Assembly: GCA_937995595.1 (NCBI GenBank)
Contig: CALKJW010000042.1
Location: 1 to 49,862 of the forward strand
DNA: 49,862 bases
Direction of reading: 5' to 3'
Origin: an uncultured Phycisphaerales bacterium
GTDB taxonomy: Bacteria > Planctomycetota > Phycisphaerae > Phycisphaerales > UBA1924
Shown: positions 39,668 through 42,994 of the stretch, one piece after another
Layout: each line of letters begins with the position of its first letter
How positions within the stretch are numbered: the stretch's first letter is position 1
Notes under the pieces: generated by a model
The model's database searches: none
Told to the model about the DNA's origin: nothing
The model's input: only the letters and a program-made list of their open reading frames with translations
Program-made: the position numbers and the translations under genes

Positions 39668-39706
39668 GAACATCCGCTGCCGCGGGGCGTGCGAATACTC
39701 TGGTGC

Positions 39707-40378
39707 ATGTCCACCGCCCTGGCCACGCCCGAAACAGCCACCCGCCCCCGGCGGTTCGTGCTGGGCATTTCCGGCGCATCGGGCGCGGCGTACGCCCTGC
39801 GGTTGCTGGAGCAGTTGCTGTTGACGGGCGCGGAGGTGCACCTGGTCGTCAGCGACTACGGGCGCCGCCTGCTGTTCGACGAGGCAGGCGTCACGCACCT
39901 CGACTTCGCCAGCCTGTGCCCGACGATCGCCGACTCGGCCGCGGCGGCGCGGCTGGTGATCCACCCCAACAAGGACGTCGGCGCGGTCATCGCCTCGGGC
40001 AGTTTCCTGCACGACGGCATGGTCGTCGTGCCGTGTTCGAGCACCTCGCTCGGCGCGATCGCCACGGGCTCGGGCTCGAACCTGCTGACCCGCGCCGCGA
40101 TGGTGACGCTCAAGGAGCGTCGGCCGCTGATCGTCTGCCACCGCGAAACGCCGCTGAGCCTGATCGACATCGAGAACATGCGCACGCTGACGCTCGCGGG
40201 CGCGATCGTGTGCCCGACCAACCCCGGGTTCTATCTCAACCCGCGCCGCATCGGGGACATCGTCGACTTCATGGTCGGCAAGGTGCTCGACCTGCTCAAG
40301 GTCGAACACGCACTGAACACGCGGTGGGAAGAGGCCGCACGGAGCGGCACGGCAGCAAAGCAGCAGAACAGCAGATAA
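39707..40378 (+). CDS. ubiX: UbiX-type flavin prenyltransferase
   Basis: Predicted 223-residue enzyme that attaches dimethylallyl phosphate to FMN to make prenylated FMN, the cofactor of UbiD-type decarboxylases. Motifs: GISGASGAAYALRLLE for FMN binding, VHLVVSDYGRRLL, then VVVPCSSTSLGAIATGSGSN and RRPLIVCHRETPLS near the C-terminal half, all typical. The ATG at 39707 is preferred to a GTG at 39689. The C-terminal 20 residues are non-conserved. The partner UbiD is not in the window; the gene stands alone between a secreted protein and an ExbB-like gene on the other strand. Confidence 0.95.
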   Translation: MSTALATPETATRPRRFVLGISGASGAAYALRLLEQLLLTGAEVHLVVSDYGRRLLFDEAGVTHLDFASLCPTIADSAAAARLVIHPNKDVGAVIASGSFLHDGMVVVPCSSTSLGAIATGSGSNLLTRAAMVTLKERRPLIVCHRETPLSLIDIENMRTLTLAGAIVCPTNPGFYLNPRRIGDIVDFMVGKVLDLLKVEHALNTRWEEAARSGTAAKQQNSR

Positions 40379-40421: not shown

Positions 40422-41255
40422 CTACTGCGCCTTGACCGGCGCGCGGTGCTGCGCCGCGGGCGCATCGCCCATGCGCAGGCGCGCCTCGCGCGGCAGCAGT
40501 TCGACCAGTTCGCTCGCCGCGACCATCGCCCGAGTGCAGAGTTTGTCGATCAGCGAGCGGTAGAAGCCGTACACCGTCAGGCACGGCACGGCCAGCAGCA
40601 GGCCCAGCAGCGTGTGGAACAGGGCCTTGGAGATGCCGAGCGAGAGGTTCGCCGGCGAGGCCTGCCCGCCCGCGTGCCCCAGCGCGGCGAAGGCGATGAT
40701 CATGCCCCACACCGTCCCCGCAAGGCCCAGCAGCGGCCCGAGGTTGCCGATCACGTTCAGCGGCTCGACCCTGCGGAACCACCGCGCGCACTCCTCGCTC
40801 GCGGCCAGTTCCGCCGCCTCGCGCACCGCGTCCTTGTCGTCGGTCGGCACGGCCAGCCCCGCGCGGACAACCCGGCTGACCAGCGCGTCGTCCTCGGCGA
40901 CGAACGCGCGAAGATCGGCCCAGCGCGCCGCGCGGCACAGGCCCGAGATGATCTCGACCGGCTCGTCGGGCGCGATGCTGCTCTTGCGCACCTCGATCAG
41001 GCAGATGATGATGATCGTCCACCCGGCCAGCGATCCGATGACCAGCAGCACGGTGAACAGGTCGAACGACTGGCTGAACAGTTCCCACAGCGAGACGCGC
41101 CCACTCTCGGTCACGGCCGGGCCGGGCGAGCCGGTTCCCTGCGCCACCGCCGCGCCGCCCGCGAGCGCCACGACCAGCGTGCACGCGACGGCGAGCAGGA
41201 CCACGAAGCGCGACCACGGCGCGCGCCGGGAGACGACCGGGAAAGGCTTGTTCAT
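40422..41255 (-). CDS. MotA/TolQ/ExbB-type proton channel protein
   Basis: Predicted 277-residue membrane protein. A signal-like N-terminus (FVVLLAVACTLVVALAGGAAVAQG) is followed by TM1 (LFTVLLVIGSLAGWTIIIICLIE), a cytoplasmic region of about 90 residues, then two helices: NVIGNLGPLLGLAGTVWGMI and LFHTLLGLLLAVPCLTVYGF, the core of the ExbB/TolQ family. In Planctomycetes such genes often energise envelope transport. Its usual partner (ExbD/TolR) is not adjacent. The start at 41255 is chosen because it directly precedes the signal; 41282 is also in frame. Neither has a clear ribosome site. Confidence 0.87.
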   Translation of the reverse strand: MNKPFPVVSRRAPWSRFVVLLAVACTLVVALAGGAAVAQGTGSPGPAVTESGRVSLWELFSQSFDLFTVLLVIGSLAGWTIIIICLIEVRKSSIAPDEPVEIISGLCRAARWADLRAFVAEDDALVSRVVRAGLAVPTDDKDAVREAAELAASEECARWFRRVEPLNVIGNLGPLLGLAGTVWGMIIAFAALGHAGGQASPANLSLGISKALFHTLLGLLLAVPCLTVYGFYRSLIDKLCTRAMVAASELVELLPREARLRMGDAPAAQHRAPVKAQ

Positions 41256-41324
41256 TCGCGGGTCCGTGAAGGGTACGTGCATGGGCGGGAGTGTACTCGC
41301 TTCGGGCGCGCGGCCGCGCGTCGG

Positions 41325-42095
41325 TCAGTTGCTCTCGGGCGGCGGCGGGTCGTCCGCGTCGTCGGGCGTGATCTCGCGGCTGATGCGGTAGTGGCCGGTC
41401 ATCCACCGGCCCAGATCGGCCAGCCTCGCCCGCTCGTCGATGAACGGGAACGTCGGATTGTCCGGCGGAACGGGCTTGCCGGTCGTCGGGCAGCGGGCCC
41501 AGCCCTCGGGCAGCGCGGCGCGCGAACCCGTGGAACCTGTCCCGGACCACGCGGCCGCGACGCGAGCCCAGCCCGCGCGCTGCGCCGCGTCGTCGGGCGC
41601 GTCGAGCGTGAGCGTCCGCGTGCCGCGGCCGTCGGCGTCGTCAGGCCCGCCGTCGGTATCGATCCGCACGTTGAACAGCGATGGTTTCATCTCGTGATCA
41701 GACGATCGTCGAACGGCCTCCCGCAGCGCGGACGCGATGCGCGACGCCCACTCGACGACCACCACCGCCGCGCCGTCGGCGACGCAGTCCCACCCCATCG
41801 ACTCCAAGTCATCCGTGCCGCGGAGGCGGTAGGCGTCGACGTGGCGCAGCGCCGCCCGCGGCGTGGTGCGCGGGTCGTTCGGCGCGGCGTACTCGTTCAT
41901 CAATACGAACGTGGGGCTGCTGACCTGCGCGGGGTCGAGGCCGAGCCCCTCGCACACGCCGCGGACGAAGCGCGTCTTGCCCGCGCCCAGTTCGCCCTCG
42001 AGCGCGACGACGTCGCCGGGCACCAGGACGCCGCCCAGCGCGCGGCCGAGCGCGACGGTCTGGCGTTCGTGGCCGGTCCGTGCGGTCAGCCGCAT
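41325..42095 (-). CDS. tsaE: TsaE with degenerate YacG-like C-terminal domain
   Basis: Predicted 256 residues. The first 150 residues are TsaE, the ATPase of tRNA t6A synthesis: Walker A GELGAGKTRFVRG, SSPTFVLMNEY, HVDAYRLRGTDDLESMGWD and VVVVEWASRI. Near 198-240 the pattern of YacG (DUF329, gyrase inhibitor) appears: RCPTTGKPV, then FPFIDERARLADLGRWM and HYRIS. YacG normally has four Zn-binding Cys; only one is left here (Cys about 201). A variable linker of about 45 residues joins the parts. The start at 42095 overlaps the thiL stop by one base (TGATG) and has GGGAG eight bases upstream. TsaB, TsaC and TsaD are not in the window. Confidence 0.9.
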   Translation of the reverse strand: MRLTARTGHERQTVALGRALGGVLVPGDVVALEGELGAGKTRFVRGVCEGLGLDPAQVSSPTFVLMNEYAAPNDPRTTPRAALRHVDAYRLRGTDDLESMGWDCVADGAAVVVVEWASRIASALREAVRRSSDHEMKPSLFNVRIDTDGGPDDADGRGTRTLTLDAPDDAAQRAGWARVAAAWSGTGSTGSRAALPEGWARCPTTGKPVPPDNPTFPFIDERARLADLGRWMTGHYRISREITPDDADDPPPPESN

Positions 42096-42994
42096 CAGGC
42101 GTGCTCCCATCCGCGCTGCGCGCAGTCGTGCTCGCGTCCGGCCGCGTCGATCGCGACACAGCCCGAGCCGCGCGCGACCGAGCCGATCCGCGTGAGCGGC
42201 GTCCCGTCGGGCGCGCGCGCGGGCAGCGCCAAACCGGGCGCGGCGGCGAAGAGGAGCTCGTAATCTTCGCCGTCGCCGATCGCCGCGAGCGCGTCGGGCG
42301 CGTCGTCGTGCAGCGGCACGCGCGGCAGGTCGATGACCGCGCGGGCGCCCGACGCCGCGGCGAGGCGCGAGGCGTCGATGCCGACGCCGTCGGAAACGTC
42401 CATCATCGCGTGCAGGTCGGGGCCGAGCGCATCGCACAGCCACGCGCCGACCGCCACGCGCGGCGTGAAGCGCAGGTGCCGGCCGCTGCGCACGCTCCCG
42501 CCGATGCGCCCGGTGACCCACAGTTCGTCGCCCGGCCGCGCGCCGGATCGGAGCACGGGCCCGCGCTCCGCGTGCGGCTCGCCGCCGACGGTGCACGTGA
42601 GCACGAGCGCCCCGTCCCACGTGGCGACGTCGCCGCCGACCAGCGGCGCGCTCATCTCGCGCGCCGCGCGCGACATCGCGTCAAAGAGCGCGTCGGCGTG
42701 CGCGAAGCCGCGCGGCAGCAGGCCCGTGGCCAGCGCCCACGCGGGCGTGCCGCCCATGGCCGCGATGTCGGAGACGCTGCGGGCGATGCACTTGTGCGCG
42801 ATGTCCGCCGCGGGGACGTCCGCGGCGAAGTGCCGCCCCTCGACGAGTTGATCGACCGTCAGCAGCAGGAGCGCGCCGGAGCCGGCGCGCACGACAGCGC
42901 AGTCGTCGCCCGGGCCGACAACGATCTGACCGAACGCCGCGGCGAGATTCGCCGAGCGTGCGTGGATGTGCGCGAGCAGTTGGTTCTCCCGCAT
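42095..42994 (-). CDS. thiL: thiamine-monophosphate kinase
   Basis: Predicted 299-residue enzyme, usual length about 310-325. It phosphorylates thiamine monophosphate to thiamine diphosphate. Conserved sites: GPGDDCAVVRAG for substrate phosphate and Mg2+, SVSDIAAMGGTPAWAL, GGDVATWDGALVL, MDVSDGVGIDASRL and GDGEDYELLFA. Belongs to the PurM-like ATP-binding family. Co-directional with tsaE with a one-base overlap and 28 bases downstream of the HTH gene. No TPP riboswitch is seen upstream. Other thiamine genes are absent from the window. Confidence 0.96.
   Translation of the reverse strand: MRENQLLAHIHARSANLAAAFGQIVVGPGDDCAVVRAGSGALLLLTVDQLVEGRHFAADVPAADIAHKCIARSVSDIAAMGGTPAWALATGLLPRGFAHADALFDAMSRAAREMSAPLVGGDVATWDGALVLTCTVGGEPHAERGPVLRSGARPGDELWVTGRIGGSVRSGRHLRFTPRVAVGAWLCDALGPDLHAMMDVSDGVGIDASRLAAASGARAVIDLPRVPLHDDAPDALAAIGDGEDYELLFAAAPGLALPARAPDGTPLTRIGSVARGSGCVAIDAAGREHDCAQRGWEHA

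Follow-up and report, generated by a model that had tools for sequence, protein, structure and literature searches.

A TsaE-YacG fusion protein of planctomycetes whose YacG domain lacks its zinc site and remains under constraint

The window, by which we mean the whole analysed stretch of 49,862 nucleotides, encodes a protein that joins the tRNA-modification ATPase TsaE to a domain of the gyrase inhibitor YacG from which three of the four zinc-binding cysteines have been lost. In this planctomycete order tsaE and yacG usually lie side by side and are often fused, and the loss of the cysteines is restricted, in our sample, to one sub-lineage of the window's family. The Cys-poor domain is under continued constraint, and what has been lost is the zinc site and not the domain; since the zinc cysteines are gone and the domain is nonetheless well conserved, it is probably a working metal-free version of YacG rather than a decaying remnant. 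The explanation that we prefer, and to which we give a probability of roughly 0.6, is that a normal TsaE carries a metal-free ('C-') YacG on a variable tether, with the YacG domain likely docking on GyrB and TsaE acting in t6A synthesis.

The fusion gene (41325..42095, minus strand) is a single ORF of 256 aa with its ATG at 42095 and its stop codon ending at 41325; the original prediction had the coordinates right, and the strand is to be read as minus. Directly upstream lies thiL, encoding thiamine-phosphate kinase (42095..42994, minus strand; NCBIfam TIGR01379, 204.8 bits against a cut-off of 184.15), whose stop codon shares one base with the tsaE start in the sequence TGATG (42093..42097, minus strand), an overlap that suggests coupled translation. 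The neighbourhood of thiL and tsaE is known elsewhere too, for example in Bacillus. Downstream of tsaE-yacG are a gene for a MotA/TolQ/ExbB channel protein (40422-41282, minus strand) and a match to the Pfam family Flavoprotein (39689-40378, plus strand), which we take to be UbiX-like. Elsewhere in the window, the listed frame of an ECF sigma factor (PF07638; 44221-44934, plus strand) overlaps the start of that of a serine/threonine kinase (PF00069; 44880-47105, plus strand), and the true start of the kinase may lie later than its listed frame.

The ATPase part of the fusion protein is a normal TsaE. Its P-loop domain (residues 9-126; 41718..42071, minus strand) matches Pfam PF02367 with 109.9 bits (E 1.1e-31) and the NCBIfam equivalog TIGR00150 with 77.3 bits, above the cut-off of 60.1. 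The Walker A motif GELGAGKT (residues 34-41; 41973..41996, minus strand) has G37, G39, K40 and T41 invariant in 28/28 aligned rows. An AlphaFold model made with 28 fusions reached a mean pLDDT of 87, and all nine of its Foldseek matches at E <0.001 are TsaE/YdiB/YjeE structures. Excerpts of a review of t6A enzymes present TsaE as an ATP-driven switch, its binding to TsaD-TsaB excluding tRNA (PMC9654439). TsaD is encoded in the window's genome (G000:C5:198983-199978, 356.4 bits), and it was found in 7/7 genomes searched. Between the two domains runs a variable linker (residues 166-197; 41505..41600, minus strand) with a mean pairwise identity of 0.35 and an occupancy of 0.62 across 28 fusions.

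The original prediction recognised a YacG pattern in the tail of the protein, and the motifs it quoted, CPTTGKP, PFIDERARLADLGRW and YRIS, are all present. Pfam finds a YacG domain (PF03884; residues 201-248; 41352..41495, minus strand) with 35.6 bits and E 7.7e-9, over the cut-off of 25.5, in the same stop-free frame as TsaE, which bears out the proposal that both are parts of one protein; in a whole-genome search the domain scored 38.9 bits. The similarity also survives a profile check in the other direction, as a profile built from 29 Cys-poor domains alone retrieved E. coli YacG as its only significant PDB matches (4tma_I, 2e-5; 1lv3, 2.2e-5), the other 4/6 matches being glucokinases with E about 0.1. 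We can thus discard the idea that the tail bears no similarity to YacG. Pfam YacG matches 28/28 Cys-poor fusion proteins (that of the window and those of 27 loci from the pattern scan described below), with E up to 0.1, and the domain misses the cut-offs of the NCBIfam YacG equivalogs (NF002362, 28.8 of 79 bits; NF001638, 18.4 of 83 bits). No second YacG scored over the cut-off in the window's genome, which is 96% complete (two further matches had E 0.18 and 0.29), and the candidate of a separate zinc-type YacG elsewhere in this genome was dropped on this ground.

Three of the four zinc cysteines are replaced, as had been predicted: C202 is kept, and T205, I219 and A223 stand in place of the others. 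Across 29 Cys-poor domains the substitutions follow a pattern. Cys202, at the position of zinc Cys 1 (41490..41492, minus strand) and the sole Cys ligand kept, is Cys in 29/29; the position of Cys 2 (Thr205; 41481..41483, minus strand) holds Thr in 26 and Ser in 3; that of Cys 3 (Ile219; 41439..41441, minus strand) is the most varied, with Ala in 13, Ile in 6, Ser in 4, Phe in 3 and His, Val and Arg in one each; and that of Cys 4 (Ala223; 41427..41429, minus strand) holds Ala in 26 and Cys, Leu and Glu in one each, the lone Cys belonging to L067 (genome G005). The domain L084 reads C-T-A-A at the four positions; L124, by contrast, is a four-Cys domain of a CX4C form. Because the four-Cys zinc site is missing, we classify the window's domain, on the sequence evidence, as a homologous and putatively metal-free variant and not as a canonical zinc-finger YacG.

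One may ask whether the site was remodelled rather than lost, with Cys1 and acidic residues binding another metal, or with Cys202 engaged in a disulfide or redox function. The invariance of Cys1 in 29/29 domains despite its missing partners needs an explanation, and Asp or Glu is common at the two columns beside the old Cys3 (21/29 and 25/29). However, no replacement set of invariant metal ligands was found in the Cys-poor domains beyond Cys1 and Asp227, this Asp is also kept in zinc-type YacG, and the fusion has no second invariant Cys and therefore no conserved internal partner for a disulfide. We consider such remodelling very unlikely.

Turning to the distribution of the fusion, the search for YacG covered 61 relatives and, in a set overlapping with these, 248 class genomes, and the search for TsaE 30 genomes; the fetched loci were classified with profiles built in this analysis. 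Among the 48 sampled genomes of the window's family, the fusion occurs with Cys loss in 29 and with the four Cys intact in 4; in 11, tsaE and yacG are separate neighbours and all four Cys are kept, and in 2 there is TsaE without YacG. Of the remaining 2, G019 yielded only a partial yacG at the end of a contig (with four Cys; TsaE was not found), and in the other neither gene was found. The fusion, thought unusual when first noticed, is hence anything but an oddity in this family. Of 39 genomes sampled from the order's other families, 22 have fused and 10 separate genes, with four Cys retained in all 32; TsaE occurs without YacG in 5/39 and neither gene was found in 1/39, this count of 39 including G285, which has YacG in a 246-aa frame and whose locus was left out of the classification. 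The two genomes in which neither gene was found are G022 and G058. As to the survey suggested at the outset, of whether the cysteines are ever kept, all four are present in 4 of the family's fusions and in the 22 of other families. Two family members with TsaE and without a YacG tail, L120 (genome G009) and L112 (genome G147), have apparently lost the domain and offer natural comparisons for its role.

Beyond the order, tsaE was found near yacG in 0/58 loci within the fetched stretches, and four Cys are kept in 58/58. These loci are a non-random sample, as they were picked by best score (30 loci of the class) or for long frames around YacG (28 loci, 8 of the class and 20 of the phylum) among the matches listed. 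The sole candidate for a fusion outside the order, a TsaE match of 8.2 bits at L232, lies on the opposite strand and was rejected. When distinct sequences are compared, Cys-poor YacG domains are fused to TsaE in 45/45 (scan loci included), and the 78 four-Cys domains divide into 26 fused, 21 neighbouring and 31 without TsaE in the stretch. A species-wide pattern scan (one genome per species, 84,980 species) yielded 457 stretches and from them 27 confirmed loci, of which 27/27 are fused and Cys-poor, a count that is biased because the patterns were drawn from Cys-poor domains; several of these loci come from the same genomes as those in the family sample. The record titles give Phycisphaer- for 23, Planctomycetota for 3 and Isosphaera for 1. 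Isosphaera is a planctomycete genus; the record in question (L156, PNJV01000002.1, titled Isosphaera sp.) seems to correspond to G036 of the window's family and is probably wrongly labelled. A frameshift or an assembly join between the TsaE and YacG halves was also considered: the frame is single, G001, of the same genus as the window's genome, has the identical single-frame architecture with the same Cys loss, and the fusion recurs in many genomes, so that such an artefact is excluded, as far as sequence allows, by G001 together with the 27/27 scan loci. In titles and abstract openings of the literature on YacG, planctomycetes and gene fusions, and of part of that on TsaE fusions, we found no mention of a TsaE-YacG fusion.

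Whether the cysteines were lost once or several times is a more delicate question. A TsaE-domain tree (100 rows, 121 columns) was set aside for dating the loss as too poorly resolved, with 43/97 inner branches open, a bootstrap that had not settled and 11 changes for the Cys-lost group, and a GyrB tree was used instead. GyrB was searched in 53 genomes and the tree holds 51 (no usable frame came from G009, and G041 was set aside); second copies of three f6 genomes were omitted, and the Cys-lost genomes G090 and G103 lay outside the search. Within the family the tree separates two clades. The first (support 100/99) has 14 members, of which 11 have separate genes, 2 a fusion that keeps four Cys and 1 no YacG; the second (support 99/98) has 29, of which 27 are Cys-lost and 2 have a fusion that keeps four Cys. 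It is this division that assigns the Cys loss to one sub-lineage. The two fused four-Cys genomes of the larger clade, G033 and G168, are nested among its Cys-lost members, with G036 and G005 as neighbours, which requires at least two changes on the GyrB tree. Several independent losses, each after fusion, would explain this placement and would be compatible with our preferred explanation; we give them a little less than an even chance. The TsaE tree, too, groups G033 with G036 (96/85), and G005 keeps Cys4 as well, possibly as an intermediate. Against this, a single loss was not rejected (AU p 0.0565), replacement of the domain in G033 and G168 would mimic the pattern, and the common C-T-x-A pattern fits one origin.

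A central question is whether a YacG domain without its zinc site is still maintained by selection. In 28 fusions the mean pairwise identity is 0.59 for YacG and 0.51 for the TsaE P-loop domain, compared with 0.35 for the linker and 0.27 for the tail. With the Cys columns excluded, the ratio of YacG conservation to that of TsaE is 1.13 for Cys-poor domains (26 of the 29 Cys-lost genomes), 0.93 for zinc-type domains of the same family (13 genomes) and 0.89 for those of the rest of the order (19 genomes). Between the window and L134, a single pair with few sites, dN/dS is 0.24 for YacG, 0.17 for the TsaE P-loop, 0.25 for whole TsaE and 0.51 for the linker, and in this one pair the YacG value is thus not below that of the P-loop. 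A decaying remnant carried along with a conserved TsaE would account for the disappearance of three of the four ligands, for the two family genomes that have TsaE and no YacG tail, and for the 7 Cys-poor genomes of the family whose Pfam scores do not reach the cut-off, with G003 and G011 missed altogether. It is nevertheless highly improbable, and we reject it on conservation: YacG is more conserved than TsaE and shows no relaxation when compared with zinc-type YacG, the substitutions are patterned (Cys2 to Thr or Ser in 29/29, Cys4 to Ala in 26/29, Cys1 kept in 29/29), and the Cys-lost state spans 25 of the sampled genus groups.

The usual view of small zinc fingers is that they depend on their metal for folding. 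In a model of the window's YacG domain alone, pLDDT averages 94-97 per block across the first 40 residues, and the five best PDB matches of this model in Foldseek are all E. coli YacG (4tma chains I, K, J and L, with probability 0.99-1.00, and 1lv3, with 0.66), at E 0.033 to 0.16, none <0.001. The YacG fold is therefore predicted to persist without zinc, a prediction that supports the fold but is no proof of its stability, since AlphaFold takes no account of metal and may produce a zinc-finger fold where there is no zinc. To judge from the substitution pattern and the model, a small packed core (C-T-hydrophobic-A) most likely takes the place of zinc and would hold the beta-hairpin onto the helix.

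If the fold persists, it may still serve its old partner. Excerpts of a review describe a Trp of YacG that inserts into GyrB and call the C-terminal region essential for contacts spanning GyrB and GyrA (PMC10886550); in an excerpt of another article, YacG residue 40 is given as Phe meeting GyrB Phe513 (PMC5507300). Position 40 of E. coli YacG is Trp in the PDB sequence, and Trp231 of the window's protein (41403..41405, minus strand) aligns with it in 4tma_I and is invariant in 29/29 Cys-poor domains. The equivalent residue is kept in 45/45 distinct Cys-poor and 78/78 zinc-type domains (in L122 as DLGKW), and because it is equally invariant in zinc-type YacG its invariance could also reflect fold stability. 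On the side of the partner, a single GyrB is encoded in the window's genome. E. coli GyrB is its best match, the matching PDB sequence being the same as that of 6rkw, which excerpts of the review assign to E. coli (PMC10886550). This GyrB keeps the Phe513 segment; Phe513 is kept in 46/46 printed segments, and the neighbouring residue 514 differs in 5/46. As the segment is conserved in gyrases generally, its presence is permissive for docking and little discriminating. GyrB ORFs (L133, L161-L212) are long in most searched genomes, at about 800-1090 aa, and in the window's genome a long variable stretch of GyrB seems to come after the TOPRIM segment. The tail of the YacG domain, its last 14 residues, is unconserved (identity 0.27 over 28 fusions) and modelled with low confidence, a point against a mechanism fully like that of E. 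coli YacG. Overall, the invariant docking Trp and the unrelaxed constraint favour an old role kept without metal over the new role that the original prediction raised as a possibility, and we infer that the Cys-lost YacG probably still binds gyrase.

A different role would be recruitment of the YacG domain to t6A synthesis, where it would help TsaE to dock on or leave TsaD-TsaB (or tRNA), contact with gyrase having gone. Several observations are in line with this: fusion or adjacency with TsaE inside the order as opposed to 0/58 loci examined outside it, TsaD in every one of the seven genomes searched, Cys loss in the fused state only (45/45), and the lack of conservation in the tail, which in E. 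coli extends to GyrA. Yet we regard recruitment as unlikely, as the variable length and poorly conserved sequence of the linker argue against a fixed intramolecular role, the proteins are separate in 11/48 family genomes and TsaE lacks YacG in 2/48, and the gyrase-facing Trp is invariant.

Our preferred explanation, a TsaE with a tethered, metal-free and still gyrase-directed YacG, can be laid out as a sequence of steps. Neighbouring tsaE and yacG have often become fused in this order, and in one sub-lineage of the window's family three of the four ligands of the fused domain have been lost. The helix presenting Trp231 was kept, and the domain therefore most likely continues to dock on GyrB in the manner of E. 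coli YacG, with the TsaE part meanwhile performing its ordinary function in making t6A; the fusion would tie the amounts of the two activities together. More broadly, the neighbourhood and fusion of the two genes suggest that t6A synthesis and the control of gyrase may be linked in these bacteria. One could go further and imagine YacG as a metal-free regulatory arm of TsaE, through which the ATP cycle of t6A synthesis controls gyrase (or the reverse), coupling translation capacity and supercoiling, with freedom from zinc uncoupling the gyrase brake from metal and oxidative stress; we find this scheme decidedly unlikely. What makes the system valuable is that the only YacG found has lost three ligands and kept its constraint, with zinc-type sisters, both fused and unfused, as natural controls, so that how the fold is held without zinc and whether the zinc of YacG matters at all for gyrase inhibition both become directly testable questions.

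Three known systems come closest to the protein. With TsaE (YjeE/YdiB), the t6A ATPase, it shares a score over the equivalog cut-off, intact Walker A and other invariant motifs, and the best structural matches of its full model; it differs from TsaE in having an additional C-terminal YacG domain. With YacG (PF03884; E. coli, PDB 1lv3 and 4tma) it shares a score over the Pfam cut-off, a predicted hairpin-helix fold and the invariant equivalent of Trp40; unlike E. coli YacG, its domain lacks the four-Cys zinc site, is part of a larger protein encoded with tsaE directly after thiL, and has a tail that is not conserved. For ribosomal proteins that bind zinc (L31, L36 and others), zinc-independent alternatives are, to judge from abstract openings, a known kind of change, and the likeness is that of a small zinc-binding protein that also exists in a form for which no zinc binding is predicted. 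In these same sources the L31 and L36 alternatives are extra copies for zinc limitation, whereas the window's metal-free YacG is the only YacG found in its genome and is fused to an enzyme.
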